Shown one piece after another: positions 11,999-31,103 of a stretch of 40,323 bases of DNA. Numbering within the stretch: position 1 is the first letter of the stretch; each line of letters opens with the position of its first letter. The translations under genes and the position numbers were made by a program. The stretch spans positions 1 to 40,323 of the forward strand of contig CANONT010000013.1 in assembly GCA_947567695.1 (NCBI GenBank), read 5' to 3'. The notes under the pieces were generated by a model. That model saw only the letters and a program-made list of their open reading frames with translations. It had not been told where the DNA came from and ran no database searches. This DNA comes from an uncultured Clostridium sp. GTDB lineage: Bacteria; Bacillota; Clostridia; TANB77; CAG-508.

Positions 11999-12122
11999 GA
12001 TTTGAAAAAGAATTGTTATTTGGCTAGGCACACGAGTTTGAAATCTATGAGGCGTACGAGTGTACGTTGATTAGATTTCAAATGAAGTGTAACAACGCCA
12101 AATAGCGATTATTTTTCAAATC
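11999..12122 (-). repeat. Full 124-bp structured intergenic element, copy 1 (rmlD/rmlA)
   Basis: Read on the minus strand it folds into one long irregular hairpin. The outer stem is about 26 bp with three mismatches (GATTTG pairs with CAAATC at the ends). The conserved GCGTTGTT faces GCCTAGCC, then come a 4-bp stem ACAC/GTGT, an 11-bp stem ending ATCTA/TAGAT, the conserved internal loop ATCAA/CCTCA, and a CGTAC/GTACG cap with loop ACTC. It begins inside the last codons of rmlD (the TGA stop is in the stem) and ends 24 bp before rmlA. It aligns without gaps to the copies at 23027 and 30980. Confidence 0.9.
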
Positions 12123-12973
12123 TCCTTCTTTAAATATCTTCTCAAAGCATCTCTCCATTCAGGCACTGTAATCCCTTGAGCCAATAGCTTTTCCTTTGAC
12201 AATTGTGAATTCTTAGGTCTCTTAGCCTGCGTAATTTTCATCATTTCAATATATTCCTCTGTTGTAACTGGATTCACCTTACAATGAATTCCTGCCTGTT
12301 CAAAAATCGCCTTTGTAAACTCATACCAAGTAGTATAACCTTGATTGGTTGTATGATAAACACCATAAGGTATCTTTTTCTCCATTGCTTCCGCAATCAT
12401 ATTAGCTAAATCCTCTGCATAAGTAGGTGAACCATGTTGATCCGCTACCACACTAATCTCATCTTTTGTCTCTCCCAATTTTAGCATAGTTCTAACAAAG
12501 TTATTACCATTACCATATAGCCACGCTGTTCTAAAAATATAATATTGGTCTGTATTAGCTTGAATTTGTTCTTCTCCCTGTAATTTGGTAACACCATAAA
12601 CTGTCACAGGAGCTTTGCTATCTTCTTCTTTGTAATCTTTTTCTACCTCTAAATCTCCGCCAAACACATAATCTGTACTAATATGAACTAATATACTATT
12701 ATTTTCTTTGGCAGCCTTTGCTAAGTTTCCTGGTCCATCGGCATTGATTTTTTCTACAATTTTCCCTGCTGTCTCTGCTTGATCCACTGCTGTATATGCT
12801 GCACAATTAATAATATATTCTGGTTTGCAATCTGCAACAAATTTTAAAACTGCTTCTTGATTGGTAATATCTAAATCTGCTACATCTGTACAAATCAATT
12901 CATTTCCCTTTTCTAGCCTTTTTCTAACTGACTTAGCAAGCATTCCATTTGCCCCTGTTATTAATATTTTCAT
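12116..12973 (-). CDS. rmlD: dTDP-4-dehydrorhamnose reductase
   Basis: 285 residues. TGANGMLA (6-13) binds the nicotinamide cofactor, STDYVFGG (99-106) is the RmlD signature, and Y126-x3-K130 (YGVTK) is the catalytic pair. It performs the last step, reducing dTDP-4-keto-L-rhamnose to dTDP-L-rhamnose. It is the first gene of the rhamnose operon, behind an extended -10 promoter, with a GGAAGTG-type ribosome site before the ATG at 12973. Its final codons (GAG-ATT-TGA) form the outer arm of an intergenic element, so this coding end is under a second constraint. The assignment is secure. Confidence 0.95.
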   Translation of the reverse strand: MKILITGANGMLAKSVRKRLEKGNELICTDVADLDITNQEAVLKFVADCKPEYIINCAAYTAVDQAETAGKIVEKINADGPGNLAKAAKENNSILVHISTDYVFGGDLEVEKDYKEEDSKAPVTVYGVTKLQGEEQIQANTDQYYIFRTAWLYGNGNNFVRTMLKLGETKDEISVVADQHGSPTYAEDLANMIAEAMEKKIPYGVYHTTNQGYTTWYEFTKAIFEQAGIHCKVNPVTTEEYIEMMKITQAKRPKNSQLSKEKLLAQGITVPEWRDALRRYLKKEI

Positions 12974-13005
12974 TCTTGCACTTCCTTTCGATTTTTTACA
13001 TGTCT

Positions 13006-13034
13006 ATCATATCATTTAACACAAAAAAGTACAA
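13006..13034 (-). promoter_or_regulatory. Promoter of the rhamnose operon, extended -10
   Basis: TGATATGAT gives an extended -10 (TATGAT at 13011-13006). The position 17 nt upstream, TTGTAC (13034-13029), is a 3/6 -35 that coincides with the terminator stem of the upstream gene. It is the only promoter-like sequence before rmlD. Confidence 0.55.
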
Positions 13035-13053
13035 GAGTTTCTTGTACTTTTTT
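13023..13053 (-). terminator. Terminator after the GH73-like gene
   Basis: A 14-bp perfect stem (13023-13036 with 13040-13053) with a 3-nt loop and A/T runs on both sides. It lies 7 bp past the stop codon at 13060 and could work in both directions. Confidence 0.85.
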
Positions 13054-13059
13054 AGTTTT

Positions 13060-16000
13060 TTATCTAACTGGACATGAACAAGCCTTTGATGGCATATTCT
13101 CATAAACAGGAATCACGAACTCAAAACGCAAATTTAATAAGCCATTCCTTTTATAATCATCTGAAATCCTTTTTCCTTCATCATTAGCAGCTCTAATATT
13201 TTGCATATACTGATGATTATATAAATTATTTTTATCTACCACATTATACTTTTGGAAATACAAAGTAGTTTGTCCTTTCTTAAAATACTCATTATTTAAA
13301 AATTTAACACTTCCATTTATACATAATTCAGGACTAAACCATTTTTCCTGATAAGCCTTAGCAGCTCCATTTCTTATAATCTCTGCATCCGAATTCCCCG
13401 TCGCTCCTATGTTAAACAAATTATACACCTTTCTACCATTATACATATAACCATTTAAAGTACTTCCTCTTGTTCCTTGTTCTTGCAATATCCTTGATAC
13501 AATGTGATAAGGGCTAACGCCATAAGTTTTTGAACTAGACAATATAGTATTAATAATACTATCTGTACTAGAAGTAGTGTATTTGGTCAAAAAAGAACCT
13601 GCTATCATTTTTGAAAGTTCAGAACGCGTTCCCATCGTTGACGTCAAATCCTGAAATTGGAAAATATAACCTTCATCTAAACTATTCCTTGGATCCATCA
13701 TATAAGCAATCGCAGCTTTAGAAGCTCGGTACCAACCTGTTCCATATTGTGTATTACCATTTTTCCATTGGTTACCATACTGTGTTAAACTTTTTGGGCT
13801 TCCACCTATTAATTGGTCTTCTTGATTAACAGCAGTATTCCAATCCAGACCTGTATATTTTACCGTTATAATCCAATTAGGATGTTGATTTTGTACTTTT
13901 TGCAATAATGCCTTATAACCGGGATACTTGGACTCATTTAAAGTTGAAAAATTAGAAGTTCCCACTGCTGTAGTTTTCACAAACCTAAATTTTTGTGAAG
14001 CTGTATTATTCCCTTTATACATCTGTACATTGGTTCCATCTTTCGTTGAGGCACCTGCTACATCTAAATACAAACCATTGCATTTCGAGATAATGGAATA
14101 ATAACCATCCCCTAAATCTTTTATCAACCATTTTTGAGCATCCGAATTATTGCTTGCATATTGTTGTATATTGGTTCCATTTGTTTTTCCTGCCCCTGCT
14201 ACATCTAATGATTTTTTAGAATGTACTGCTTGTATGGTATAATAATTATTTCCTACATGTGTCACATTAAACTTCTGTTGATTTACTTCTGACCTTCCCC
14301 AAATTTGTATATTAGCAGAATTGGCTGTACTTCCACCAGACACATCTAACAGTTTGTTAGAACTTAGAGCTGTTTGAATTTCGTACATACCATTCTCAAT
14401 AGATTGTGCTGTGGTTGCCTCAAAAATAAATTTCTGAGCATCACTGCCATTTCCTTTATACATCTGTACATTCGTCCCATCTGCTGTTGAACCACCATTA
14501 ATGTCCAAATACAAGCCATTACATTTAGACATAATCGAATACTTACCATTTCCCCAATCTTTAATTGCCCATTTCTGAGCATTAGAACCATTGTATTGGT
14601 ATTGTTGCACATTCGTTCCATTTGTAGTTCCAGCTCCTGCTACATCTAAAGATGATTTGGAATGTACCATTCGGATAGAATAATATCCACCACCTAAATA
14701 AGTAACATGAAATTTTTGATGATTTTTATTGGTATCTGACCATAAAGCTACATTCACATTATTCTTAACAGAACCTCCTGAAACATCCAATACCTTTTTC
14801 GTATTCTTGACAGGCTTAATTTTATACATACCATCTTTTATTGTTTGTTTCAACTCTTCTGTTGCTTCAAATACAAACAATTGAGAATTCGTTCCATTCC
14901 CTTTATACATTTGTATATTCTTTCCATCAGTCGCTCTACCGCCTGCGACATCTAAATACAAACCATTACATTTAGAAATAATCGAATAATAACCTTTTTT
15001 TACTTCTTTAATAATCCATTTTTGAGCATTAGAACCATTATATTGATATTGTTGTACATTGGTTCCATTTGCCGTTCCAGCCCCTGCCACATCGAAAGAT
15101 TTCTTAGCATGCACAGATTGAATCGTATAATAGCCATCTCCTAAATAAGTTATATTGAATTTTTGGGCATTGGTATTATTTGCCTTGTAAATTTGTAGAT
15201 TAGCACCATTATTTACAGAACCGCTTGCGATATCTAATACTTTATTGGTATTCAAAGCTGATTTAATCGTATACGTCCCATTTTTTATAGTTTGTTTTAT
15301 TTCTTCCGTCTTTTCAAAAACAAATAACTGTGATTTTGTCCCATTACCTTTAAACATTTGTACATTGGTACCATCTTTCGTTGAAGCTCCTGCTACATCT
15401 AAATATAGGCCATTACATTTAGATTGAATCGAATAGTAACCATTTTTATTTTTTCGTATCACCCATTGTTGTGCATCTGAATGATTACTTGTATATTGTT
15501 GTACATTGGTTCCATTTGTCTTTCCTGCCCCTGCTACATCTAATACTTTTTTGGTATGTACTGATTGAATCGTATAATAGCCATTTCCTAAATAGGTTAC
15601 ATTAAATTTTTGTGCATTGGTCGTATTTTGCTTATAGATTTGCACATTAGCACCATTATTTTTGGAACCTCCCGCTATATCCAAAACCTTATTCGTATTT
15701 AATAATGATTTAATGGTATACGTTCCATTGGCTATTGCTTGTTTACCTCCTGTTGCCAATGGCATAATCCCTTCATCTTGCATTGACATTGGCATAATGC
15801 CAGTATCGTCATTTTGCTGAACTTTATTTTTAGTGTTATTATCTATTGTCTTACTTTTGGTATTAGTATCTGTTGTTTCTTTTTGTTTTGTGCTAGTAGT
15901 ATTTTCTTTACTACTAGCACTTGACGTTTCATTTTCTTTTTTTTGATTGGTCTGATTCCCAGTTATATTATTTTGATTATTAGAAGATTTGGTTGTAGTT

Positions 16001-16104
16001 TTATTGGTATTTACCTCATTATAACTCGCATTGGCTACTGGCAATGCCAGATAAATCAATGCAACAGCTATCATTATCATACTAATTTTCTTGTTCATCT
16101 TCAT
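13060..16104 (-). CDS. Secreted GH73-like N-acetylglucosaminidase with four ricin-type trefoils
   Basis: 1014 residues. A signal peptide (about 1-26, ending ANAS) leads into a Thr/Asn/Lys-rich linker (28-100) with the doublet GIMPMS...GIMPLA (103-116). Four beta-trefoil lectin modules follow (about 124-264, 272-413, 421-562 and 568-709). The C-terminal domain (about 720-1014) has the layout of LytD-type endo-beta-N-acetylglucosaminidases (GH73-related): AYMMDPRN, SPYHIVSRILQEQG with a likely catalytic Glu (E875), YNLFNIGATG, and a late YFQKYNVV. It should cleave glycan strands of peptidoglycan, with the lectins anchoring it to wall carbohydrate. It lies 39 bp downstream of the GH25 gene with no promoter visible between them, so co-transcription is likely. 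The ribosome site GGAGG is 6 nt from the ATG. Confidence 0.92.
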   Translation of the reverse strand: MKMNKKISMIMIAVALIYLALPVANASYNEVNTNKTTTKSSNNQNNITGNQTNQKKENETSSASSKENTTSTKQKETTDTNTKSKTIDNNTKNKVQQNDDTGIMPMSMQDEGIMPLATGGKQAIANGTYTIKSLLNTNKVLDIAGGSKNNGANVQIYKQNTTNAQKFNVTYLGNGYYTIQSVHTKKVLDVAGAGKTNGTNVQQYTSNHSDAQQWVIRKNKNGYYSIQSKCNGLYLDVAGASTKDGTNVQMFKGNGTKSQLFVFEKTEEIKQTIKNGTYTIKSALNTNKVLDIASGSVNNGANLQIYKANNTNAQKFNITYLGDGYYTIQSVHAKKSFDVAGAGTANGTNVQQYQYNGSNAQKWIIKEVKKGYYSIISKCNGLYLDVAGGRATDGKNIQMYKGNGTNSQLFVFEATEELKQTIKDGMYKIKPVKNTKKVLDVSGGSVKNNVNVALWSDTNKNHQKFHVTYLGGGYYSIRMVHSKSSLDVAGAGTTNGTNVQQYQYNGSNAQKWAIKDWGNGKYSIMSKCNGLYLDINGGSTADGTNVQMYKGNGSDAQKFIFEATTAQSIENGMYEIQTALSSNKLLDVSGGSTANSANIQIWGRSEVNQQKFNVTHVGNNYYTIQAVHSKKSLDVAGAGKTNGTNIQQYASNNSDAQKWLIKDLGDGYYSIISKCNGLYLDVAGASTKDGTNVQMYKGNNTASQKFRFVKTTAVGTSNFSTLNESKYPGYKALLQKVQNQHPNWIITVKYTGLDWNTAVNQEDQLIGGSPKSLTQYGNQWKNGNTQYGTGWYRASKAAIAYMMDPRNSLDEGYIFQFQDLTSTMGTRSELSKMIAGSFLTKYTTSSTDSIINTILSSSKTYGVSPYHIVSRILQEQGTRGSTLNGYMYNGRKVYNLFNIGATGNSDAEIIRNGAAKAYQEKWFSPELCINGSVKFLNNEYFKKGQTTLYFQKYNVVDKNNLYNHQYMQNIRAANDEGKRISDDYKRNGLLNLRFEFVIPVYENMPSKACSCPVR
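13978..15735 (-). repeat. Array of four highly similar ricin-type trefoil modules (GH73 protein)
   Basis: Four protein repeats of about 140-148 residues (124-709). Stretches such as YLDVAGAS, GTNVQMYKGN and VQQYQYNGSNAQKW recur almost unchanged, and similarity extends to the DNA, so the array could recombine within itself or with the GH25 array next door. Confidence 0.88.
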
Positions 16105-16143
16105 TTTTATCCTCCATCCATTATCCCCTGTGTTTGTCCTAAT

Positions 16144-19041
16144 TTAATAATTTTTATAAGAAACATTTAAATCTACATTTCCTACAATTCCATTCACTTT
16201 TCCTGAACTTGTATATTGCCACATATCATAATTATATTTATAATCTGTTTTATGAGAAGTACTTCCTGTATAATGCGCTACCCAAATATCATAACCCTTT
16301 AATTGATTCATATCTAAATTGTTATAGAACCAATCTCTACTAGCGTAAATAGCTGGTGTATAACCTGCCTTTCTTATCGTATCACAAAAGGCTTTACATA
16401 CGGCTGTTCTTGTTGCCACATCTAATCGATCTGCTCTTCCAGCACCGCCATTGGCTGTTTCAGTGTCAATGGCAATTGGATAAGTAATATTAACACCATA
16501 TGTTTTAGCTAATTGTACTAAGTTCAATACATAATTTGCTTCTTGTACCGCTTCTTTTGTATTCACTGCTTGTGTAAAGAAATACAAGCCAACTGGAATT
16601 CCATTTGCTTTGGCACCTCTAATATTATTAATAAATTGTGGATCTGTATTTAGTGTTCCCGTTGCTCCATATCCTCTAAATCCAGCTCTTATCATAGCAA
16701 AATCTGAATAACCTGTCTTACTTACTTCGTTCCAGTTAATTAAATTTTGAAAATAACTGACATCAATGCCACTTTTCTCAAATACTTGATAAAGTTTAAA
16801 CATTTGTCCTGTGGAATTATTGGCTTTATAAACTTGTACATTCGTTCCATTTGCTGTACCATTTCCATAAATATCCAAATAACGTCCTGTTGATTTTGAT
16901 TTTATTTTATAATAACCATTTCCTATACTTTCAAAAATCCATTTTTGATTATTGGTATTATTATCTGTAGCTTGTACTACATTATTGTCACTTGTTACTG
17001 TCAATACTTTTTTAGAATGTTTTGCTATGATTTTATAATCCGTATGATTAATTGCCTTTACTTGGAATATTTGTTGATTAACATTTTCTCTATCCCAAAT
17101 TTGTAAATTAGCATTCTCCTCATAAGAGCCACCAGAAATATCTAGTACCTTATTAGCACTTTTCCCGATCACTATTTGATAGTTATTACTATCTATCGTT
17201 GTTGTTTTTACAAATTTAAATTTTTGTGCCTTTGTGCCGTTTCCTGTATACAATTGTACATTGGTTCCATTTGCAGTACTTGCTCCTGCCACATCTAAGT
17301 ATAATCCTGAATAGACTGCTACTATGTAAAAATAGCCATTTCCTGCATCCTTTAGCACCCATTTTTGAGCATTGGAATGATTACTTGCATGTTGCCATAC
17401 ATTGGTACCATCTGTTTTGCCATTTCCAACTACATCAAGTGCTTTGTTAGAATGAATCGCTTTTATTTCATAATATTTTTCATTACTATTATAGGTAATT
17501 TGAAATTTCTGTTGTTGTACATTCTCAGAATTCCATAATTGAAGATTTGCACCATTACTAGAAGAACCTCCCGCAATATCGAATACCTTGTTACCCTGTA
17601 AAGCAGAAGATATTTTATAAACGCCATCATTTAATACCTTATCACATGTATCTTTACTTATTTTCTGAAACTTAAACTTTTGTGCCTTAGTTCCATTTGG
17701 TTCATATACTTGCAAATTAGTTCCTGTTTTCGTAGAAGCACCATTTAAGTCCAAAAATAAATAATTACATTTTGAAATTATATAATAAAAACCATCGTCT
17801 GTCTTTTGTATAATCCATTGTTGGGCAGCTGATTTATTTCCTTTATATTGTTGTACATTGGTTCCATTTGTTTGACCAGCACCTGCTACATCCAATACTT
17901 TATCAGAATGAAAAGCTTGAATGGTATAAGCTTTTAAATTCTTATCATAAGATACTTGAAATTTTTGATATTGTTTTCCTTTATCTCCTAATTGTAAATT
18001 AGCTGCATTATTTGTCTTTCCTTTGTCTATGGTTAAAACTTTATGATAAGATAAAGCAGAAGAAATATAATACAATCCTTCCTCTATTGTTTTCTCTGAT
18101 TTAACAGGCTCTACCTTTTCAAATTTAAACTTTTGAGCATCTGTATTATTTCCTTTATATAATTGAAGATTAGCTCCTTTTACAGCTTTCCCAGCAGGAA
18201 CATCTACATATAATCCATTACACCTAGAAATAATAGAATAATATCCATTTCCATCTGCCTTTAAAATCCACTGTTGAGCTAGTGAATTATTACTTTTATA
18301 TTGTTGGATAGCAGTTCCTAGTTTTTTACTAGCTCCTGGAACATCTAACACTTTTTTTGAATTTTCAAATGTCAAAGAATAATAGCCATTGTTAAGATAT
18401 TTTACAATTACATTTTGGCTCGTGCTAACAGATAATTGATTCGCTAATTTTACTTTTTTACCATTGTGTGTAGATTTTCCCTCCACTTGAAATACCATTT
18501 TTTGATTTAACTTACTTTGTATTCTATAAGTTCCATTTTCTAATCTGGCTGACGTTTCATTGGTAAGAGCATAACTCATAATACCATCGTTTTCTGCCTC
18601 TGTTGCTTCCTCTTCTTGCTTTTCTAAAGCTTCCTTTTGTTTGATTTGTTTTGATTTGCTCTCCTCTGTTTCCGTCTCCTTCTTTTTGTCATCTGGTACT
18701 TTTTCTGTTGTTACTGGTTTACTACTATCAACCTCTGTTTTCGTACCATTGTTTGTTGGATTCGTCTGACTTGTTGCATTGGTATTATTTTTATCTGTTT
18801 TATGATTCGTTGAATCTACCTGATCGTTCTTGCCTGTTTCCCCTTTATTTGTCTGATTGTTCTTACTTGTGTTATTCGTGTTTGTTGTTTTTTCTGTTTC
18901 TTTTTGATTTGTTATTTTATTACTTACTACTTTATCTTTTTCATTGGTACTAGTTGCTCCATATGCTAAATTAATTGTTGTAAAACAAATTGGAAATATC
19001 ATCACAAAAACTAGCATAATGACTATTATCTTTCTTCTCAT
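16144..19041 (-). CDS. Secreted GH25 lysozyme (muramidase) with four ricin-type trefoils
   Basis: 965 residues. A signal peptide (about 1-28, ending AYGA) precedes a long charged, Asn/Thr/Lys/Glu-rich linker (29-150) and a GIMSYA motif like the one in the GH73 protein. Four trefoils follow (about 166-308, 318-459, 469-611 and 618-751). The C-terminal GH25 domain (756-963) shows all landmarks: GIDVSYFQ with D760, FAMIRAGFRGYG, GLYFFTQA, PIAIDTE with D859 and E861, IWVAHY, DMWQY and GNVDLN. GH25 enzymes hydrolyse the MurNAc-GlcNAc bond. The protein is therefore an intact exported muramidase targeted by lectin modules. It has its own TTGATT-17-TATAAT promoter and a GGGGG ribosome site. Confidence 0.95.
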   Translation of the reverse strand: MRRKIIVIMLVFVMIFPICFTTINLAYGATSTNEKDKVVSNKITNQKETEKTTNTNNTSKNNQTNKGETGKNDQVDSTNHKTDKNNTNATSQTNPTNNGTKTEVDSSKPVTTEKVPDDKKKETETEESKSKQIKQKEALEKQEEEATEAENDGIMSYALTNETSARLENGTYRIQSKLNQKMVFQVEGKSTHNGKKVKLANQLSVSTSQNVIVKYLNNGYYSLTFENSKKVLDVPGASKKLGTAIQQYKSNNSLAQQWILKADGNGYYSIISRCNGLYVDVPAGKAVKGANLQLYKGNNTDAQKFKFEKVEPVKSEKTIEEGLYYISSALSYHKVLTIDKGKTNNAANLQLGDKGKQYQKFQVSYDKNLKAYTIQAFHSDKVLDVAGAGQTNGTNVQQYKGNKSAAQQWIIQKTDDGFYYIISKCNYLFLDLNGASTKTGTNLQVYEPNGTKAQKFKFQKISKDTCDKVLNDGVYKISSALQGNKVFDIAGGSSSNGANLQLWNSENVQQQKFQITYNSNEKYYEIKAIHSNKALDVVGNGKTDGTNVWQHASNHSNAQKWVLKDAGNGYFYIVAVYSGLYLDVAGASTANGTNVQLYTGNGTKAQKFKFVKTTTIDSNNYQIVIGKSANKVLDISGGSYEENANLQIWDRENVNQQIFQVKAINHTDYKIIAKHSKKVLTVTSDNNVVQATDNNTNNQKWIFESIGNGYYKIKSKSTGRYLDIYGNGTANGTNVQVYKANNSTGQMFKLYQVFEKSGIDVSYFQNLINWNEVSKTGYSDFAMIRAGFRGYGATGTLNTDPQFINNIRGAKANGIPVGLYFFTQAVNTKEAVQEANYVLNLVQLAKTYGVNITYPIAIDTETANGGAGRADRLDVATRTAVCKAFCDTIRKAGYTPAIYASRDWFYNNLDMNQLKGYDIWVAHYTGSTSHKTDYKYNYDMWQYTSSGKVNGIVGNVDLNVSYKNY
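16789..18546 (-). repeat. Array of four ricin-type trefoil modules (GH25 protein)
   Basis: Four modules of about 140 residues (166-751). The first and last are the most diverged; modules two and three resemble those of the neighbouring GH73 protein most closely. Confidence 0.85.
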
Positions 19042-19076
19042 ATTTCTACCCCCATTATCTGTATTTTTCCACTATC

Positions 19077-19105
19077 ATTATATCGAATACTAACTACTTA
19101 ATCAA
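19077..19105 (-). promoter_or_regulatory. Promoter of the GH25/GH73 hydrolase unit
   Basis: TTGATT (19105-19100), a 17-nt spacer and TATAAT (19082-19077), 36 nt before the ATG. Confidence 0.75.
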
Positions 19106-19125
19106 TTCATAAATTTTGGTAATAC

Positions 19126-20064: not shown

Positions 20065-20105
20065 CTTTTCTTCTTTCCCTTCTTTTTCTTTTTTACTATG
20101 GTTCT

Positions 20106-20134
20106 ATTATATTATTAACTTGTCGAAATAGCAA
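20106..20134 (-). promoter_or_regulatory. Promoter of the GT2 gene at 19126-20064
   Basis: TTGCTA (20134-20129, 4/6), a 17-nt spacer and a perfect TATAAT (20111-20106), 42 nt before the ATG. Confidence 0.65.
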
Positions 20135-20230
20135 CATTTTTTGGTGAGTTTCTATATTTTTTTGTAATAAAGGTGTTACTGTTCAGCTTAACTAATATTA
20201 TACATATATTAACGTGCATTATTTAGCTAT

Positions 20231-21097: not shown

Positions 21098-22993
21098 CTA
21101 TTTACTTTTTCCCCTTTTTATCGTATAAGCTGTCCAACCAATCACAAAAGGTAATGTCATCATAACAGGTAGCATATACCTAACAAAAGCATTCACTGGA
21201 GAAGCCACACACACTAGTAAAATCACATATAAAGGAACCAAAATAGCCATTTCTCTTTTTCTTTTAAAATACCACAATACCAAAGTAACAATTATTAAAA
21301 TCCAAGTATATAAGCCACAGCTAAACAAAAGGCCTATAAGAGGCATACTTCTTAATGTGTAAGTAGCACGTTCTATCATATTTCTATAAACCTCTGTACT
21401 CTCCAAAAGATGAATATCGAAATGACTTACATTACGATGTGGTGGTGCATCAATCAGATAGAAAGCAACACCATCTTTATATTCTTTTCGATCTGGATAA
21501 AAATATCCATACGTAGAATTGATCGTTGCTTTTAAATAAGCATTTGGATGTTTAAAAAACATTTTAAACCACACCCTAAAATACGCCTTTAAATCGTCTT
21601 TCGTAGCAGATGACTTATATTGTGCCTTTACAAAATCAACCGTTTCCGCAAAATAATTTTTCTTAATATCCTCAATATCTACTAATTTACTAATAATCTC
21701 CTCTTCCTCTTGTGTTAATTCATATTCCATAATATATCTTGAAGTTTGTTGCAAGGGAATAGAAAGAGTTTCTCTAACACTTCCATTCACAATATGATTA
21801 GCCTTCATATAAAATTGTGTAAAACCAAAACAAAAAACAACCACTAACAAAGTACTAGCCATTACTTTTATCTTTTCCTTTTTCTTGACAATGACAACAA
21901 AAAAAGGAAGTGAAAGTAATAAAATATAAACACCATTATTTCTAAACAAATACACAAAAATCATAGAAAGCACATAAATAATCCATTCTTTTTTGCTTAA
22001 TTGACCATTCGCCACTATAAATTTCATACTAAATATCACATATAAAAGGATAGACATAGAAAAATAAATATCTTTTACCTCTGTATAAAAATGAATTGGC
22101 CAAGTAGGAAAAAATGCAAAAAATAGGAATATCCCATATTTTATCTTCTTATTTTTCGTTAATTGGTAAATATACTTCATGCCATAACTCAATAGAAAAG
22201 CCCCCAACAATACTTGGGAAATATTATTTAAGAACACCCCTAAATTATCATTAGATAACCAAAATGCACCTATTTTCATAAAACCACCAAAAATAATGGT
22301 TGGAAAAATCGGATGATGAGTTGTCCATTCCACAGCTCCTACATATTGCTCTATTTCTAACAAAGAGTCTCGATTCATAGTTCCTGGATAAAAAATAATA
22401 ATATAGGGTAACCAACAAATCAAAAAACAAATCATATAGAACAATATAGGATGTGCTTTCTCCACCTCTTTAACTCGATTCCAAACTTTACTTTTATTCA
22501 TTCTACTCGTTTCTTCTTGCTTATTTTCTTTCTTTAACTTTTCTTTTATCGTAGTTATTAAAAAAGTAAATAAATACTTAAATAAAAACACATAACCAAT
22601 ATAATTGATGCAAGAAATGAACATTTGAAAATTGCTTTTAAAAATCAAATCCCAATTATTCATATGAATAAAACTATTTCCAAACACCATAAAAACCGCA
22701 AAAATGAGTCCACCCATAAGAGTGACTTTTGGAAGCCTTTTGTCCTTCTTATCCTCCTTTTTGCCTATGTGATAGTAAAAATAAGCAAGTAAAATAAAGA
22801 TAATAGCATTGTTGGCACCATAAGCATTTTCATAATTTAGTCCTAATTTAACAATAAAAATGGTAAAAGAGCTCCCCGTCTGGATAACCTCTAATGCCTC
22901 TTCATGCGTAATTGGTTGCGTTGCCGTCGAAAATGCTAACACAGTAAAGAAAGCAGCTATGATACAAATTACAACATTTCGATTAATTTTCAT
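21098..22993 (-). CDS. Large polytopic membrane protein, DUF6020-like, probable GT-C type enzyme
   Basis: 631 residues with about thirteen membrane helices and a sizeable extracytoplasmic loop before the last ones. IIFYPGTMNRDSLLEIEQ followed by WTTHHPIFPT matches the pattern I associate with DUF6020 proteins, which resemble GT-C transferases that use lipid-linked sugars outside the membrane. The function is inferred. The open frame runs on to 23059 through the adjacent intergenic element and starts there with TTG. The ATG at 22993, 12 nt after AAGGA, is preferred, and an ATG at 23005 directly abuts the ribosome site. It is the last gene of the long polysaccharide operon, preceded by the full intergenic element copy 2. 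Confidence 0.78.
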   Translation of the reverse strand: MKINRNVVICIIAAFFTVLAFSTATQPITHEEALEVIQTGSSFTIFIVKLGLNYENAYGANNAIIFILLAYFYYHIGKKEDKKDKRLPKVTLMGGLIFAVFMVFGNSFIHMNNWDLIFKSNFQMFISCINYIGYVFLFKYLFTFLITTIKEKLKKENKQEETSRMNKSKVWNRVKEVEKAHPILFYMICFLICWLPYIIIFYPGTMNRDSLLEIEQYVGAVEWTTHHPIFPTIIFGGFMKIGAFWLSNDNLGVFLNNISQVLLGAFLLSYGMKYIYQLTKNKKIKYGIFLFFAFFPTWPIHFYTEVKDIYFSMSILLYVIFSMKFIVANGQLSKKEWIIYVLSMIFVYLFRNNGVYILLLSLPFFVVIVKKKEKIKVMASTLLVVVFCFGFTQFYMKANHIVNGSVRETLSIPLQQTSRYIMEYELTQEEEEIISKLVDIEDIKKNYFAETVDFVKAQYKSSATKDDLKAYFRVWFKMFFKHPNAYLKATINSTYGYFYPDRKEYKDGVAFYLIDAPPHRNVSHFDIHLLESTEVYRNMIERATYTLRSMPLIGLLFSCGLYTWILIIVTLVLWYFKRKREMAILVPLYVILLVCVASPVNAFVRYMLPVMMTLPFVIGWTAYTIKRGKSK

Positions 22994-23026
22994 CTTTAAT
23001 CTCATTCCTTCCCAAGGCACAAACCG

Positions 23027-23150
23027 AGGTTGGAAAAGAATTGTTATTTGGCTAGGCAAACAAGGTTGAAATCAATGAGGCGTACTTTTGTACGTTGATT
23101 TGATTTCAATCGAAGTTTAACAACGCCAAATGGCAATTCTTTTTCAACCT
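23027..23150 (-). repeat. Full 124-bp structured intergenic element, copy 2
   Basis: Same length and fold as copy 1. The outer ends are AGGTTG/CAACCT, the short stem is AAAC/GTTT, and the inner stem TTGAAATCAA pairs with TTGATTTCAA. The cap is CGTAC/GTACG with loop AAAA. The blocks GCGTTGTT, ATCAACGTAC, GTACGCCTCAT and GCCTAGCCAAATAAC are unchanged. It starts 15 bp after the stop of the DUF2142 gene and ends 22 bp before the ribosome-site ATG of the next gene. Confidence 0.9.
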
Positions 23151-23164
23151 TACTCTATGGCACC

Positions 23165-24694
23165 CTATTTAAAAAACTCATAAATCGAATTTAAAGCAGA
23201 TAAATTCAACAAGCATAATATAATTGGCAATATCAATTGTATATTTTTAACCTTGATATAATTTTCTTTTCTACTCAAAATCAATACCAGTAAAAATGCA
23301 ACTGGTATAAAATATCTACCTTGTACCCCTTCTACTACATTAGCACCAACCCCTGTCCAATGCAAATATAATCCTGTTATTACTAATAAAATCGTTCCTA
23401 TACTTATTAACATAGCAAAAACTTTCTGTCCTAGAGAAAATGCCACTTTATTTTTTTCGATAAAACAAGAAGCCAAAATAACTATTATATAAGTAATAAT
23501 CGTAAGAGAAGGTACATGGATTTCTAACCAACCTAAATGTGTTCCTATCATCATCCCAATCCATTCTTCCCCTTTTAGATACAAAGTATTCCCAATCGTT
23601 CCCATAAATTTAATAGGATGGCTTACCACTTCTTTAACTTGACCTGACATATTAACATGATTTTGCTCTAAATACTCTTTATGAGGACTTTCATAAATAC
23701 CACTAAAAACAAAATAAGCTATCACTAATAAAATAGAAATACCAAATGTTATAGAAAGCATAACCATGGTTCTCTTTTTATCAACATTTTTGGAAAATAC
23801 CAAAAGAATACCTAGGAATATAATTGGTAAATACACATATTTTGAAAGTGCCAACAAAACACTCAAAACAAAGAAACCTACTTCCTCTTTTTTCGTCATT
23901 TTTTCTTCTTTAAATAGCAAAGCTACTACAAAAGAAATAAATAATAAGCTTAAAATATTCATGATACTATCTGCTGATGTTGAAGTAGCTTGATGTAAAA
24001 ACATTGGCATAAAAACAATACTCGTAATTGTCCATTTGCCAAATGGTATGATTTTAATCGCATAATAAACCGTTAGCAATAATACAATAAAATTCATTAA
24101 ACATGCCAAATAGCATCCCAATAAAATATTGAGATGTAATATTCTAGCTATCAAAAATCCAATCGCTCCAAAGATATAAAGAAAAAATGGATAAGTTTTA
24201 AAAGTATTATTCACTTCTACTTTGTCATGATAATCAGTTGTATCAGAAAGTACTGTATTAAATTCTTGATAGTTATTGACGTAGCTTTTCACATGATATA
24301 CTAAATCAGCTGGCACTGTGGTTGCTTCTTTACTACTAATAAATTTCCCTTCTGATATTTCATAAGTTCTCCACAAATGTCCCAATTCATCTGGAATTTG
24401 GGATGGAAGCATAAATATAGTATATAACATACCAATTGGGATTAAAAAACTAATTACGATTTTTTCTATTTTTTCTTTATTTTTTCCATAATTATAAATC
24501 ATTAGTAATAGCAACAGGATTCCTGCTATTGCTATATAAATAATGTGTTTTACAGATGTTATACCTACATAATTTTTTAAAACTACAAATCTAAATACGC
24601 TATATGTCATACATAATGATACTATAAATTCTATTGGAAAAATTAATTTTAATAGAATCGTTTTAACTTTATTAACTAATATTTCTCTTTCCAT
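23165..24694 (-). CDS. DUF2142-family membrane protein, probable envelope glycosyltransferase
   Basis: 509 residues and about twelve membrane helices. The first outside loop contains PSQIPDELGHLWRTYEISEGKF, the PDExxHxxR signature of DUF2142, and a late segment VEGVQGRYFIP is also diagnostic. The family is found in polysaccharide and teichoic-acid clusters and has a GT-C-like layout with an acidic catalytic-type loop, but its biochemistry is largely unproven. An ATG at 24706 is possible, but the ATG at 24694 has GGAG six nucleotides upstream. It follows the split membrane gene by a few bases and is followed by intergenic element copy 2. Confidence 0.85.
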   Translation of the reverse strand: MEREILVNKVKTILLKLIFPIEFIVSLCMTYSVFRFVVLKNYVGITSVKHIIYIAIAGILLLLLMIYNYGKNKEKIEKIVISFLIPIGMLYTIFMLPSQIPDELGHLWRTYEISEGKFISSKEATTVPADLVYHVKSYVNNYQEFNTVLSDTTDYHDKVEVNNTFKTYPFFLYIFGAIGFLIARILHLNILLGCYLACLMNFIVLLLTVYYAIKIIPFGKWTITSIVFMPMFLHQATSTSADSIMNILSLLFISFVVALLFKEEKMTKKEEVGFFVLSVLLALSKYVYLPIIFLGILLVFSKNVDKKRTMVMLSITFGISILLVIAYFVFSGIYESPHKEYLEQNHVNMSGQVKEVVSHPIKFMGTIGNTLYLKGEEWIGMMIGTHLGWLEIHVPSLTIITYIIVILASCFIEKNKVAFSLGQKVFAMLISIGTILLVITGLYLHWTGVGANVVEGVQGRYFIPVAFLLVLILSRKENYIKVKNIQLILPIILCLLNLSALNSIYEFFK

Positions 24695-24712
24695 TGGTTT
24701 CTCCATTCTTTG

Positions 24713-25342: not shown

Positions 25343-26678
25343 ATAAATCGACTACTATTAAAGTAATGATTGTTGCTATCATAAATGCACTTTTTCGGCT
25401 GATAACTGGTTTCTTTATCATAGCTAAACTTCTTAACAAAAGAAGAACCTCAATAAATCCTACTGCTAGCATGGCTCTTTTCGATTGTGATTTACTAAGC
25501 AAAGTCAATTTGGCAACCACCTCTGGAAAACCAAATACACAATATAATGATAAAAATACATAAGCCACCAATAAGCAAATCAGAAAAACATCTTTTTTCT
25601 TTTCTTTTATTAACTGATAGCCTGCCAATAAAATACCGATGGGAAATAGTGTAAACATGACAGCAGCTTCACAAGTATTGGCTTCTATTCCACTTTCTTT
25701 AAAAGCTAAAAATGGATTCATAAGATAACTCACATACTTTTTAAGCATCTCCCCTCCTGTCACTGCCCTAGATCCTGGATATACTGTATTCATAACCGTT
25801 TTTATCGTCTCCATCGATTGGGAGAAAATATATCCCATACAACCAGCAAAAACAAGAATTGCCACTATGATTGAAATAATATCTTTGTAATTAATTTTGC
25901 AATTCTTTCTATTTTCTACCATTACCCAAATAGCCAATGCTAAAAAGACATAAGCCATCGGAATTTGCCAAGCAGGATATAATACCATAATATATCCACC
26001 TGCACAGATCACCAATCCTAATAAATACAAACATCTCTTCTTCAAACTGTCTGTATTCATATATTTGTGTAATAGTAAAATCGCTAATTCTCCAAATACA
26101 AATATTTCTACAATTCCGTTAACGGCAAACCACCACTGTACAATAGGTGCTAAGGTAATCATAAAAGCACCAATAAGAGAAAGTAACTTATTTTTCTTGG
26201 TAAACAACATACTAAATTCAAAAGTAACCATAAATAAGGCTATGAATCTTCCACACCAAAAGAAAGAAAGTCCTTTTGCCATTCCTAACAATAAAAATCC
26301 TAATTGAAATGGTCTAAAGATTTGCATAATATTTAAAATAGGTAATCCATACACCATAAATACATCTGTCTGATCTCCTCGTAAAACATCACTAAAATAG
26401 TGGAATCCATCAAAAAACTGGGAAAGTGTCATAGGTGTTAAAACTGCCCATTCATCACTTCTAATGCCTCTTGATTTTCCCAATACAACACCCTCATCTG
26501 TAACATTAGAGCCAACAAAGTTGTTCCAACAACCAATGGATGAACCACTAATTTCTAATACAACACATAAAAGAAATAGCACAATTGCTATATAGTATCG
26601 GTAACGATATAGCCATTCTCCTATTTTGTTTATGAATGCAATTGCTTGATCAATTTTATTGGTTAAGTTTTCTAACAT
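25314..26678 (-). pseudogene. N-terminal part of a frameshift-split polytopic membrane protein
   Basis: 454 residues, about eleven membrane helices. The segment LGKSRGIRSDEWAVLTPMTLSQ (about 66-88) is typical of a family of large, uncharacterised envelope membrane proteins in Firmicutes with a GT-C-like plan, normally about 650-700 residues. Here the frame ends in the unnatural tail DLCERWNARIC, while the expected continuation lies in the next frame (24713-25342, 29-bp overlap). A good ribosome site (AAGGAGGATATA) precedes the ATG at 26678. If intact it would act in the same outside-the-membrane sugar-transfer step as its DUF2142 and DUF6020 neighbours. It is probably disrupted; a sequencing or assembly error is the alternative. 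Confidence 0.65.
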
Positions 26679-26725
26679 TATATCCTCCTTTAATTTGTAA
26701 AATATTCTTAAGTTTATTAATAGTA

Positions 26726-28249
26726 TTAGATAAAACTTAATTGTTCTTGATTTATATAAGTATTTTTATATTTTCTATAATCATCTTCTGTTATAATTTT
26801 TCCTATATGATATTGATCTACCATATCTTTAAAACTATTAAAATCAGTATTTGTAATAATTTTCGATAAATTTATCCTCATCAAAACTTCTTTTGTATAT
26901 GGTCTTTTCTTATCTAAAAACGCTATAGAATACAAAAAGTCTTGAACTTGTGGAGAATTTAATAAAGTCATTGTTATGATAGCATTTTTTTCTTCTTCAA
27001 ACCCAATAAAATAACAGGTATCGTCTAACATAATTGATTTTTCGTTGGAAGATAATACTACAAAATTAGGTTTTTTATAAAAGCCTGATACTGCTACTTT
27101 ATATTTATAAAAAGAATAATCTCCAATTCCAAATATTGAAAAAGCAGGAGCATTATTATATATAGATGATTTCCTTGCATCCAGAATTTTTCTATTTTTG
27201 TTTAAATAATTCCATAATTTAGGGCTATCCTTCGCAATGTACTTTGTATCCTGTTTCACTTTACTTTGTGTAACAATTACAAATTTATCGCTTTGACTGA
27301 TATAATTTTCTTTTAAATCACTACTTTTTAATAAGGGATACACTAAATTTGATTCCACTTCTACTACTTCTTTTAAACCATTAAAATATTTGTGATCCAT
27401 TCGTTTTAGTTCCATTATTTTAGAACAATCATGTTTGATCCCTTGTCTCCACTCAATGGGAAATTTACCGTCCATATTACTATCAACCATATTAAAGTTT
27501 GAATAAAACTTATTTTGTTTCCAACCAAATTTATATATTAAATGATTCGGCTTTTCTATATTGTACACATTAACTGTTTTTTCACCTATTTTATCAAGTT
27601 TAGCAAAAAATAAACAAGCTTCACAATTTACGCCAAATACTTTTTTGGCATCTAATAAATACATTTTTATATTTGAAATTTTAAAATCATATTTATGAAT
27701 TTCTTTAATAATATTAGTAACAACCGATGTCTTACATAACATTGCTATATTTGCATTTATATCTTTATATTGATTTAATAAGTCAAGTATAATATATTCG
27801 CAAATATCAAAATTACTTGCCCCTGTAATTGATGCCAATCCTTTTAATTTTTTAAAATTATTTTTCTTTGGTAAATTCTCTAGTTCATTTAACATCAATT
27901 GAGAATTCGTCACCCAAGGGGGATTTCCAATAATTAACAAGTTATCATCACTCGTTATGTTTTTAATGATTTTCTTATGATTAAATTCAAATATATTTTC
28001 GTTGTATCCAACAAATTTATTTGTTATCGCTTTGGCTTCTTCAAAATATTTTTTATTAATTTCAATGCCATATATATTTTTTACTTTTTTAAATTTTTGA
28101 TTGGTTGCTTTGATAAAATTTCCAATTCCAAAAGTAGGCTCTAGTATGATAGTTGGATTTATTTCCTTTTGGATAATATTTACTACTTTTTCACAAAAAT
28201 TGAAAGGTGTCTGATAATCGCCATATTCTAATTTATTTAAAGTTGACAT
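26726..28249 (-). CDS. N6-adenine DNA methyltransferase of a Type II R-M system
   Basis: 507 residues. Motif I is ILEPTFGIGNF (about 35-45, SAM binding), motif II GIEIN (61-65), and the catalytic motif IV is NPPW (109-112), the signature of N6-adenine methyltransferases of the gamma (TaqI/Eco57I-like) type. The C-terminal half (about 260-480) presumably recognises the target. It would protect the host site from the partner endonuclease. The ATG at 28249 has AAGGTG six bases upstream and overlaps the endonuclease gene by 17 bp, a tight coupling that makes co-translation likely; GTG at 28258 is a weaker alternative start. The gene is foreign to the surrounding polysaccharide functions and looks like an inserted module. 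The recognition sequence cannot be predicted. Confidence 0.9.
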   Translation of the reverse strand: MSTLNKLEYGDYQTPFNFCEKVVNIIQKEINPTIILEPTFGIGNFIKATNQKFKKVKNIYGIEINKKYFEEAKAITNKFVGYNENIFEFNHKKIIKNITSDDNLLIIGNPPWVTNSQLMLNELENLPKKNNFKKLKGLASITGASNFDICEYIILDLLNQYKDINANIAMLCKTSVVTNIIKEIHKYDFKISNIKMYLLDAKKVFGVNCEACLFFAKLDKIGEKTVNVYNIEKPNHLIYKFGWKQNKFYSNFNMVDSNMDGKFPIEWRQGIKHDCSKIMELKRMDHKYFNGLKEVVEVESNLVYPLLKSSDLKENYISQSDKFVIVTQSKVKQDTKYIAKDSPKLWNYLNKNRKILDARKSSIYNNAPAFSIFGIGDYSFYKYKVAVSGFYKKPNFVVLSSNEKSIMLDDTCYFIGFEEEKNAIITMTLLNSPQVQDFLYSIAFLDKKRPYTKEVLMRINLSKIITNTDFNSFKDMVDQYHIGKIITEDDYRKYKNTYINQEQLSFI

Positions 28250-28898
28250 TAACAACACCTTCTATCTCATTATTTAAAGAAATAACTCTCGCATATTGTA
28301 ATCTCCATTGTAAAGCATTCGATATTGTCAAATATCCTTGATTTGGTTTATTTTTTATCACTAAATCAGCTAAATTCGATAATGTTATTTCATCTCCTGG
28401 AATAGCTCTATCCATAAAATATCCGATTAGATCTTCTTTATTCGCTCCATCTTGAATCATTTCATTAATTCTCTTAGTTATTGTATAATCAGCTGTTCTA
28501 TTAGCATTGATAAAAGTACAATTTATAAAATGCAATTTACATTCACTTTCAAAATCCACCTTATCATATATAAATACTAGCAAATTATATCCTAAACCAA
28601 ATATTTTTTGTTTAGAATCTTTATAAGGACAAGAAGATTGAGGTTGCTTAATAGATGTTACTTTAATATCTGTATTAATATGATCATCTGGTAAATCTAT
28701 TCCTGATGCTGAATTACCTATTGTAAACTCATATTTTTCCTTTAAATATTGCTTAAATTTGTGTTCAACATAGGTACCTACAGCTTTTCCATCTGTAATT
28801 CCTCTTAATTGAATATGATTCTTTTTTGTTTCTATTTCACAAAATATCTTTGCTTCTTTTATAAGCCTATTTAATTCTAGCTTTTGTTTCATTATCAT
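28233..28898 (-). CDS. Type II restriction endonuclease, PD-(D/E)XK type
   Basis: 221 residues. A nuclease core can be read as E45 (YVEHKF), D68 (SGIDLP) and D77-I-K79 (INTDIKVTS), followed by QPQSSCPY. This D...DxK pattern with an upstream Glu fits PD-(D/E)XK restriction enzymes, and SGIDLP...DIKxTS with QPQSS is a pattern I associate with annotated Type II enzymes. It is directly upstream of, and overlaps, an adenine methyltransferase gene. Own promoter; ribosome site GGAGGGG before the ATG at 28898 (an in-frame ATG follows at 28892). The order endonuclease-then-methyltransferase from one promoter is unusual for safety reasons, so there may be an internal methyltransferase promoter. I see none. 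Confidence 0.82.
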   Translation of the reverse strand: MIMKQKLELNRLIKEAKIFCEIETKKNHIQLRGITDGKAVGTYVEHKFKQYLKEKYEFTIGNSASGIDLPDDHINTDIKVTSIKQPQSSCPYKDSKQKIFGLGYNLLVFIYDKVDFESECKLHFINCTFINANRTADYTITKRINEMIQDGANKEDLIGYFMDRAIPGDEITLSNLADLVIKNKPNQGYLTISNALQWRLQYARVISLNNEIEGVVNVNFK

Positions 28899-28918
28899 AT
28901 TCCCCTCCTATATCGCAT

Positions 28919-28947
28919 AATATATCACATTTTATTTATTTTTGCTA
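28919..28947 (-). promoter_or_regulatory. Probable promoter of the restriction-modification pair
   Basis: TGATATATT gives an extended -10 (TATATT at 28924-28919). The -35 candidate TAGCAA (28947-28942) is poor (3/6). It supports independent expression of the inserted module. Confidence 0.45.
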
Positions 28948-28994
28948 CATTTATAATTGATAATATTTACCAAATTTCTATTCAATATATTTTT

Positions 28995-30872
28995 TTATTC
29001 TTCTCTTATATCGTAATGACTAGAATTTAGACTAAAATTAGGATTATAATAAGGATCTCCCTCATCATAAATCTTTTTCCACTTCTTTTGGAACTTTTCA
29101 ATTTCAGCCTCAAATCTTGCCACCTTTTCCGGTGTATCTTCATATCCTCTTGTCTTAGACTCATAATGGATTAATGTAACAAATGGGTCATACACAATCA
29201 ATTTTCCAGTCTCTCTAATTTTTAAACAAAAATCCAAATCATTAAAAGCTACAGGCATATTTTCGTCCATATAGCCCACCTCTTCATAGGTTGACCTTTT
29301 AGCCAGCATACACGCTCCTGTTACAGCACTAAAATCCTGAATGGAGCTTTCTCTTGCAAAATAACCAGGTAAATGTCTTGGTAGACCTCTAAACAAATGA
29401 GTTGCCACGCGATCCACACCAAATACGATTCCCGCATGTTGAATGGTATTGTCTGGATAGAATAATTTTACACCAACCGCTCCTACATCATCTCTTGCAC
29501 AAAATCCTAACATATCTTCTAACCAGTCTTCAGTTTCGACTTTTGTATCATTATTTAATTGCATAATAAATTCTCCATCTGAATTCTTAACACCTAAATT
29601 GATAAGTTTAGAATAGTTATATCCTTTTTCTTCATAACGTACCACTTTAATTTTCTCATTTTCTTCTAGTTCTTTATAATAAGCAAAAATCTCCTCTGTC
29701 TCACTATTATTTTCGACAATTACAATCTCATAATTTTCATAGGTTGTCTTTTCCAAAATAGACTCAACACAAGTTTTCAAAGTTTCTTTTTCATCTTTAT
29801 TTGGAATAACAATAGAAACTTTTGGATTTCCTTCAAACTGATAACGAACTCGATATGTTCCCAAACTTGCTCCATGCTCTACCGTTGCCTTTAATCCCAT
29901 TCTGTCTAAATGATCTTGTATGGCTGGAATTCCCGCTTCAAAAGCATATGGTTTTGATTCGACTTCTGCTTGTGCAGTTGAATTTGGGTGAACCCTCCAA
30001 TGATACAATACTTTTGGAATATGTACAATATTTTTCGTTAATTCAGAAACTCTTAAAATAATATCAAAATCTTGAGCTCCATCATACTTTCCTCTTTCTC
30101 CCTCTAACTTGTCCATCAATTCTTTTTTAAATACACTAAAATGACAAATATAATTGTTAGCTCGTAAAAAGTCCAAAGAAAAATCTGGCTTAAAATGAGG
30201 ATTAAATCTTGGTTCTTCCAAAGTTGTAATCTTATCTTCATCGGTGTAGATGAATTCTACTTCTGGATTCTCATTAATACATTTTACCACTTCATATAAA
30301 GAAAAAACAGGTAATAAATCATCATGGTCAAAAAGAGCAATAAAATCTCCTGTTGCCAACTTAATACATTCATTGGTATTTCCTGCAATTCCTTTATTTT
30401 CTCCTAAAAATTTGTATTTAATTCTTGCGTCTTGCTCATAGATTTCTTTTAAAGAATCATCTTGTTCAGGGCTACCATCTGCTAAGCAAAGTTCCCAATT
30501 GCTATACGTTTGATGAATTAAACACTCTACCAATTCTTTAAAAAACTTGTATGGTGTATTATACATTGGAACCAAAATACTAATTTTAGGTTCCAAAGCA
30601 AATTTTGTTTTTCTTTGTTGTTCTAGTTCCTCCTCCGTAGGCTCATTTTTTTCTATCCATTTTTGATAAAGATCATTCGCATCTACAAACTGTGGCTTTC
30701 CCCATATCTTACCATGAATTCTCTTCATCGTTTTAGAAAAGCCTTGTTCTTTCATCATTTGACACATCTTTTTCAAATTGTTTGGGTGTAAACCCTTTAC
30801 AGCCAATGCAATGGCTCGCAACAATTTTCTTATTTTGGTTCCTTCTGGGAACAACTGATCTCTAATCCTCAT
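28995..30872 (-). CDS. Two-domain GT2 glycosyltransferase of polysaccharide synthesis
   Basis: 625 residues. About 90 N-terminal residues without a recognised domain precede a first GT2 domain (about 95-320: ISILVPMYNTP, DHDD metal site near 182-185, YTDEDK) and a second (about 355-600: VSIVIPNKDE, QLNNDTKVE, GAVGVKLFYP, TGACMLAKR, NDLDFCLK). Both have their DxD-type residues, so it may add two sugars or alternate linkages, as in O-antigen and rhamnan polymerising enzymes. No membrane helix, so it is cytoplasmic or peripheral. ATG at 30884 touches the ribosome site; the ATG at 30872, 12 nt after AAGGA, is preferred. Full intergenic element copy 3 lies upstream and the inserted R-M module downstream. 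Confidence 0.9.
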   Translation of the reverse strand: MRIRDQLFPEGTKIRKLLRAIALAVKGLHPNNLKKMCQMMKEQGFSKTMKRIHGKIWGKPQFVDANDLYQKWIEKNEPTEEELEQQRKTKFALEPKISILVPMYNTPYKFFKELVECLIHQTYSNWELCLADGSPEQDDSLKEIYEQDARIKYKFLGENKGIAGNTNECIKLATGDFIALFDHDDLLPVFSLYEVVKCINENPEVEFIYTDEDKITTLEEPRFNPHFKPDFSLDFLRANNYICHFSVFKKELMDKLEGERGKYDGAQDFDIILRVSELTKNIVHIPKVLYHWRVHPNSTAQAEVESKPYAFEAGIPAIQDHLDRMGLKATVEHGASLGTYRVRYQFEGNPKVSIVIPNKDEKETLKTCVESILEKTTYENYEIVIVENNSETEEIFAYYKELEENEKIKVVRYEEKGYNYSKLINLGVKNSDGEFIMQLNNDTKVETEDWLEDMLGFCARDDVGAVGVKLFYPDNTIQHAGIVFGVDRVATHLFRGLPRHLPGYFARESSIQDFSAVTGACMLAKRSTYEEVGYMDENMPVAFNDLDFCLKIRETGKLIVYDPFVTLIHYESKTRGYEDTPEKVARFEAEIEKFQKKWKKIYDEGDPYYNPNFSLNSSHYDIREE

Positions 30873-30919
30873 TTTTAATATCATTCCTTTCTTATGTCAC
30901 AATCTGATTAGAAAAAATA

Positions 30920-30957
30920 CTAATAAATTTAGTTATCACTTATTAAAATTTATTTAG
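30920..30957 (-). repeat. AT-rich hairpin beside intergenic element copy 3
   Basis: CTAATAAATTT pairs with AAATTTATTTAG (one bulge) around a loop of about 15 nt. The sequence between it and copy 3 starts AGTTTGGAAGATAA on the minus strand, echoing the 5' arm of copy 3, so this may be a decayed tandem copy. The evidence is thin. Confidence 0.3.
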
Positions 30958-30979
30958 AAAGTGTTTATCTTCCAAACTT

Positions 30980-31103
30980 AGTTTGGAAAAGAATCGTTAT
31001 TTGGCTAGGCGCACGAGTTTTCAATTTATGAGGCGTACTAAGGTACGTTGATTAAATTGAAAACGATGTGCAACAACGCTAAATGTTGATTATCTTTCAA
31101 ACT
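30980..31103 (-). repeat. Full 124-bp structured intergenic element, copy 3
   Basis: Same length, blocks and fold as copies 1 and 2. The outer ends are AGTTTG/CAAACT (extendable by two more pairs on each side), the short stem is GCAC/GTGC, and the inner stem GTTTTCAATTTA pairs with TAAATTGAAAAC. The cap is CGTAC/GTACG with loop CTTA. It starts at the TAG stop of the methyltransferase-like gene, with AGT-TAG-TTTG inside the stem. Confidence 0.9.

Follow-up and report, generated by a model that had tools for sequence, protein, structure and literature searches.

The 40,323-nucleotide stretch of contig CANONT010000013.1 analysed here (hereafter, the window), from an uncultured Clostridium sp. 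(assembly GCA_947567695.1), contains on its minus strand a polysaccharide operon with rfb genes, a Wzm/Wzt-type transporter and glycosyltransferases, and this operon hosts three copies of a 124-bp hairpin element that is the subject of this report. A preliminary description, made from the letters of the window, had reported these copies; we recovered them at the same positions and of equal length, aligning without a gap over 124 columns, with the conserved words, short stems and outer ends that it had listed (Table 1). It had also described the inner stems as fully complementary, a detail that is softer for copy 2, where an A.C mismatch lies near the stem foot. The fold of all three copies is strong: the RNA minimum free energies of copies 1, 2 and 3 are -41.7, -45.1 and -33.2 kcal/mol (z -9.7, -9.6 and -6.8), as against shuffle means of -13.9 to -16.9, and no equally stable sequence was found among 200 shuffles. 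As single-stranded DNA the same copies fold with z values of -7.3, -7.8 and -5.8, and the opposite strand, in the one copy tested, folds equally well as DNA. Copies 1 and 3 overlap the stop codon of the upstream gene. In addition, the window contains more of this family than had been described, namely a tip-deleted derivative (DNA fold z -5.5) and 3' tails.

Table 1. Hairpin copies, tails and derivatives of the element in the window.
Feature	Position	Strand	Context and remarks
Full hairpin, copy 1	11999..12122	-	Between rfbD (12116-12973) and rfbA (start 11974); rfbD stop codon inside copy
Full hairpin, copy 2	23027..23150	-	Between DUF2142 gene (23165-24706) and DUF6020 gene
3' tail of copy 2 (CGGTTTGTGCCTTGGGAAGGAATGAGATTAAAG), with Shine-Dalgarno	22994..23026	-	Runs up to ATG at 22993
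Full hairpin, copy 3	30980..31103	-	Between gene with weak methyltransferase match (31102-32655) and two-domain glycosyltransferase gene
Tail relic without full hairpin (CAGATTGTGACATAAGAAAGGAATGATATTAAAA)	30873..30906	-	Directly 5' of ATG at 30872; by eye
Tip-deleted hairpin derivative	11042..11097	-	Between rfbA and DUF6056 gene; 25.9 bits, E 0.03 (covariance model)
3' tail of tip-deleted derivative, with Shine-Dalgarno	11009..11041	-	Ends at ATG at 11008; by eye

Additional copies had been expected in this genome and its relatives, and a covariance model built from the three window copies, applied to the window's own genome and to a set of 94 genomes that includes it, finds them. The own genome gives 29 matches at 19 places (expectation value, E, up to 0.084), some of these places being hit on either strand owing to the near-palindromic sequence of the element, and 58 of the 94 genomes, the own one included, match the model, with 0 to 22 matches per genome in counts that include opposite-strand echoes and use a stricter filter. 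Scanning a named genome collection for the conserved tip yielded 86 stretches titled Clostridia, Clostridium sp., Clostridiaceae or Eubacteriales, and the names of some copy-bearing isolates (for example Chicken, Lapin and wildmice) hint at an origin from the gut. Across a class-wide sample of 391 genomes, model R2 matches 13, of which 11 belong to the same order as the window and two, matched weakly, lie outside it; the pattern TCAACGTNCN{3,7}GNACGCCTC occurs in nine, eight of them in that order, and its reversal in none of the 391. The ninth genome (G264, from another family of the class) holds a copy of the same architecture with quite different stems, flanked by genes that, judging by the ends of their proteins, we take to be rsfS and leuS. 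Judged by these searches, the family appears to be nearly confined to one order of Clostridia. The core also matches two viral contigs, one with a related GC-rich hairpin core and the other apparently by chance. Comparison with Rfam gave no match to the element, for the window at gathering scores and for four copy-bearing loci at E up to 5, and we did not recognise it in portions of the open-licence literature on mobile repeats, attC sites, quasipalindromes and structured RNAs; a large-scale survey of human microbiomes for candidate structured RNAs (PMC8040213) might include it. A T-box-like leader at positions 5941-6137 of locus L110 (59.7 bits, gathering score 93) ends 70 bp upstream of an element copy. 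The set of 168 copies used below consists of best-strand matches of about 55 bits or more, from which opposite-strand echoes, truncated, short or nested matches and a few others (e.g. L012) were removed by hand.

The copies are dispersed, vary in presence at a given site between close relatives, can be nearly identical at unrelated sites and lie mostly in sense orientation; such dispersed repeats with filled and empty sites are a possibility that the preliminary description, in reading the copies as structured elements, did not weigh. Genomes G004 and G055 are about 95% identical, and in their comparison, which used about 80% of G004, 12 of the 15 G055 copies have a matching flank pair in the G004 sequence. 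Four of the copies (L244, L258, L234 and L252) look like insertions just 5' of a start codon, the counterpart site of L234 holding about 85 bp of other sequence in place of the copy, and L250 is an apparent gain at the stop codon of the upstream gene; the other sites hold shared copies or deletion remnants, or are complex. At L244 the empty site reads GCAAGGTGGATGATTAAAAAATGG and the filled site GCAAGGTGGAT, with the insert ending AGAAAGGAAT, followed by GATATAAAAAATGG. By the model, the rbfA-nrnA junction, which is filled in the window's genome, has a full copy in one of 30 fetched loci, and a junction at a metallo-beta-lactamase (MBL) gene has one tip-deleted copy among 30, with remnants in a few more loci by eye. 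Non-orthologous copies in G004/G055 reach 99.2% identity (L240/L231 over 125 bp, L244/L241 over 120 bp). Copies of different subfamilies occupy one site in L032 and L044, where the flanks are 95 and 93% identical and the right junction is the same by eye, and thus elements were replaced or arrived repeatedly. At the site shared by L042 and L284 (flanks 89% identical), four pairs differ with compensation, two unpaired bases differ and the outer arms are identical. Beside one insertion site (L117, L174 and others), the MBL-fold gene is shortened, split or stop-interrupted in several genomes of the genus.

Downstream of the hairpin, many copies carry a shared tail, by eye GATTTGTGCCTTAAGAAAGGAATGATATTAAAAATG, that ends at the start codon of the next gene, so that the unit seems to consist of the hairpin and a tail of about 27 nt containing a Shine-Dalgarno sequence. 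With up to five substitutions, the motif GATTTGTGCCTTARGAAAGGAATG has 10 matches in about 1.125 Mb of G004 and its reversal none; at all 10, a frame of 88-562 codons starts within 12 nt of the motif end, and by eye the motif is preceded by a full hairpin in one case, by a short or partial one in about six and by no hairpin in three. We then scored anti-Shine-Dalgarno matches (dG -6 or lower) in sliding 24-nt windows upstream of the hairpin. Among tail-bearing copies, the 24 nt preceding the hairpin contain a Shine-Dalgarno sequence in 32 of 53, compared with 2 to 5 of 53 in windows ending 6 to 80 nt further up (p 2e-7 against 5 of 53); with one copy per site, the counts are 24 and 4 of 43 (p 6e-6). 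The window initially used for this signal had been picked after viewing the flanks, and 14-nt windows ending at least 5 nt before the hairpin reach 13% at best; the sliding windows confine the signal to the last few bases 5' of the hairpin. Thus, copies with a recognisable tail mostly stand between an older Shine-Dalgarno sequence and a start codon, and bring a new one. At the other end, 127 copies have a co-directional upstream gene, and the stop codon of that gene falls at the element or within it in 74 of them and no more than 10 nt away in 23 more. Stops in at least two frames fall within the first 21 nt of 127 of the 168 copies, whereas the same holds for 25% of windows from the background and for 38% of element starts after shuffling. 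For orientation, 150 of the 168 copies have genes on both sides (of the rest, five are located within reading frames and 13 are missing a neighbouring gene), and among the 128 between same-strand genes, 122 are sense and six antisense. A leader peptide from a TTG at the 5' end of the element was also considered and rejected: by eye, its frame is open through the hairpin in one subfamily and closes after about 13 codons in the others, and is therefore not conserved.

The preliminary description had further stated that the stems differ yet stay paired around conserved loops, and this is borne out over many more copies. Our alignment comprises 74 of 83 distinct copies (73 distinct rows), nine having been excluded for nested inserts or broken arms, and 70 of the 74 were found through the conserved tip pattern; the stems played no part in finding them, whereas the constancy of the tip in part reflects this way of collecting the copies. 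Overall, 92.4% of the alignment cells pair, both-sided changes occur in 31 of the 43 pairs, and there are 295 double-change cells, as compared with 79.7 (standard deviation 10.5) after shuffling and no more than 68 when the partners are slid. Five tip pairs are invariant in the alignment, and copies elsewhere carry GTGC/GCAC at the tip. When columns 34-101 are omitted, departures from the commonest pair comprise 294 other Watson-Crick pairs, 84 A.C, 34 G.U and 138 mismatches of other kinds. Half of the A.C cells (42 of 84) come from column pairs 18-116 and 44-93, and once these two are set aside A.C and G.U have similar counts. Of the standard pairs of the element, 1.2% are G.U (3.1% counting the constant T-G columns 34-101), as against 6.6% in 22 tRNAs from the fetched loci, a rough control because tRNAs are richer in G+C. 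Selection on a sense-strand RNA would put G.U well above A.C, the wobble-tolerant covariation expected of a structured cis-regulatory RNA, and no such excess was found (34 versus 84 cells). Thus, of the two options left by the preliminary description, a selected RNA is not supported, and a single-stranded DNA fold is the one that we favour. Since changes run from one Watson-Crick pair to another and G.U is no commoner than A.C, the pairing is seemingly kept as DNA; this pattern fits pairing at the DNA level, or double changes made in one step. The tip loop of L248, which has turned into a perfect palindrome, is an example of a one-step change, and template switching is described as making and maintaining hairpins in sections of PMC8794818.

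We consider it likely that the window copies belong to a non-autonomous mobile DNA hairpin element, of the kind of miniature inverted-repeat transposable elements (MITEs) and of the hairpins formed by repetitive extragenic palindromic (REP) doublets (REPINs), that is fitted for operon junctions. Such an element would measure about 150 bp, with a 124-bp imperfect hairpin bearing conserved internal loops and tip, followed by a tail of about 27 nt ending in a Shine-Dalgarno sequence. A trans-acting enzyme may recognise the folded single strand through its loops, so that the stems may drift provided that pairing holds, and one-step template-switch correction may produce many of the double changes. 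The early stop codons at the 5' end would close the upstream gene and the tail would restart the downstream gene, so that insertion inside an operon would be tolerated. Several observations count against this interpretation. The searches described below revealed neither a mobilising enzyme nor an autonomous relative. Aligned from the hairpin end, the tail shows weak conservation (no position above 0.4 bits in the 168 copies, ungapped), its pattern is recognised in 53 of the 168 copies and lacking in 115, and it diverges more than the hairpin between the near-identical L240 and L231; tail-less copies show no Shine-Dalgarno enrichment (16 versus 12 of 114, p 0.54). The neighbourhoods are themselves biased toward the direction of the element (303 versus 72 other gene pairs), which explains part of the sense orientation. 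In addition, the compensated pairs of L284 and L042 are also expected from selection at a fixed site or from gene conversion. The nrnA and MBL junctions are the only ones at which an outgroup polarises the empty sites. Those of L252 and L246, among others, resemble deletion remnants, that of L252 resembling the 5' end of the element. Target duplications are neither clean nor consistent: L244 shows a few bases, as does L110 by eye.

The search for a mobilising enzyme took several forms. In about 80% of G004 and the 86 named loci, no longer relative with a gene between the arms was seen (list read by eye), and an arm search at E up to 1e-3 gave 73 isolated arm matches, none of which, by eye, represent a gene enclosed by a pair of arms. 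Among the proteins encoded beside the copies in the 86 loci, the 25 largest clusters look like housekeeping families by eye and not like recurrent mobile genes; the largest is present at 11 of the 86 loci, and no single gene family recurs. One alternative is a REP/REPIN-type element moved by a Y1 HUH transposase of the RAYT or IS200 kind, with the Shine-Dalgarno-like target and the tail recognised by pairing to a guide such as the CCTT in the tail. REPINs are mobile hairpins in which compensatory changes are common (passages of PMC3116915), IS200/IS605 elements select their sites by guide pairing (passages of PMC8266576), and Y1 genes occur in 77 of the 94 genomes (172 matches), many of the proteins being 250-310 aa and hence RAYT-like by size. 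Outside the genus, Y1 genes are found in 13 of 14 element-bearing and 13 of 22 element-less genomes, a weak association (p 0.054; p 0.096 over all 94 genomes). However, within the genus there is no association between Y1 and the element (p 1.0), and Y1 is not seen in six genomes that have 4-12 matches to the element (incomplete bins account for three of the six, or all are metagenome-assembled genomes); the element adjoins one of the 70 Y1 loci examined among the 172 matches, and that locus is IS200-type. A Y1 transposase as the mobiliser is thus unsupported within the genus, and we regard this alternative as unlikely. A GGGGACGTTTC-like repeat is present at 18 of 40 Y1 loci, counted with two substitutions allowed and without a control. 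RAYT-like Y1 genes of the genus (L216-L229, L382-L421) often have GTCCC-type repeats alongside, and these repeats look like separate REP systems.

A second alternative, that the element is an ordinary MITE with an unselected fold and that quasi-palindrome template switching alone maintains the complementary arms, is compatible with the palindromic tip loop of L248, with double changes and few wobble intermediates, and with the mechanism as set out in parts of PMC8794818. However, template switching alone should erase internal loops as readily as it repairs stems, and the apical loop motif is kept in 21 of the 27 model-found copies of G004 and G055, with four of the other six having a different tip, although the model favours loop-bearing copies; we judge this explanation improbable as well. 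Least probable, and in our opinion very doubtful, is a cis-acting RNA for processing, stability or translation control, selected at each operon junction after arrival, because the sense orientation, the strong RNA fold of the window copies and the compensated changes at the fixed site of L284 are set against G.U pairs that are not favoured over A.C and are rare relative to tRNAs, presence that differs among relatives, tip-deleted and degenerate copies, the lack of a recurring neighbour gene family and an opposite strand that folds as well as DNA.

The mobile DNA hairpin that we favour can be compared with known systems. As in MITEs, it is present or absent in relatives and near-identical copies are dispersed. 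With the REPINs mobilised by RAYT, as presented in portions of PMC3116915, it shares dispersed intergenic mobile hairpins, conserved parts and compensatory stem changes; unlike these, it is a 124-nt multi-loop hairpin with a conserved tip, a Shine-Dalgarno tail and strong sense orientation, and no RAYT was found beside it in the loci examined. REP sequences are 20-50 nt palindromes preceded by a conserved tetranucleotide (GTAG or similar), whereas the element is 124 nt long; the 40 nt 5' of its hairpin hold at most 0.2 bits per position over the 168 copies. The ERIC/RU-1, RUP, BOX and Correia elements (sections of PMC2229807, PMC3049150 and PMC10969869) are likewise about 100-160 bp, with palindromic ends, intergenic and in some cases co-transcribed with their neighbours; in contrast to what those sections describe, the present element has no fixed terminal sequence, its arms change in concert, and it inserts after a Shine-Dalgarno sequence and carries a replacement. 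The words ribosome, Shine and start codon do not occur in the main text of the MITE review. Like attC sites, according to parts of PMC2727003, the element has structure conserved beyond sequence and unpaired bases as marks; unlike them, it has a conserved tip. The element often lies at stop codons in gene orientation. The same is true of attC sites. The attC end boxes, of consensus RYYYAAC and GTTRRRY, were found in none of the 168 copies on either strand.

Further observations concern variants of the element and other genes of the operon. At L010, L119 and L124, the internal loop of the element carries, always at the same point, another short hairpin of roughly 50 nt (core GCTGTAACAAGCAAAGCTTTAACAGC), and L117, the same site as L119 in a relative, is without it. 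L258, L251, L253, L257 and L011 form a subfamily with a different tip (GTTACATACAAAAGTATGCGCC type) on a similar stem. The copies of L026 and L040 lie 5' of the same downstream gene (87% identity), with similar tips and unmatched upstream flanks, and their outer arms of at least eight pairs differ on both sides yet still pair. Inside the polysaccharide operon of the window, two genes without a Pfam match (26726-28258 and 28233-28898) resemble by eye a DNA methyltransferase and an endonuclease, possibly a restriction-modification insert. Three large proteins of the operon (3741-6800, 13060-16104 and 16144-19041) have signal-peptide-like starts and many internal repeats, spaced at about 441-456 bp with sub-repeats of about 141 bp.

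Two traits of the element are best read as unusual in comparison with REPINs and MITEs, namely that its stems vary freely while the loops are conserved, and that its tail permits a position between ribosome-binding site and start codon. More tentatively, and with considerable doubt, we suggest that it may represent a new class of mobile element, with stems free to change, for which the folded single strand alone would be the recognition signal. An undescribed enzyme directed at ribosome-binding sites would then insert the element between the Shine-Dalgarno sequence and the start codon of a gene, its own signal replacing the displaced one. In addition, strong covariation by itself does not establish that an RNA is functional. 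In this family, wobble pairs are avoided in the double changes, as is expected of a DNA hairpin or of template switching, and automated metagenome searches for structured RNAs could list such repeats as regulatory RNAs. If our interpretation is true, a selfish element is able to colonise tight operons without silencing them, by means of early stops at one end and a ribosome-binding site at the other.

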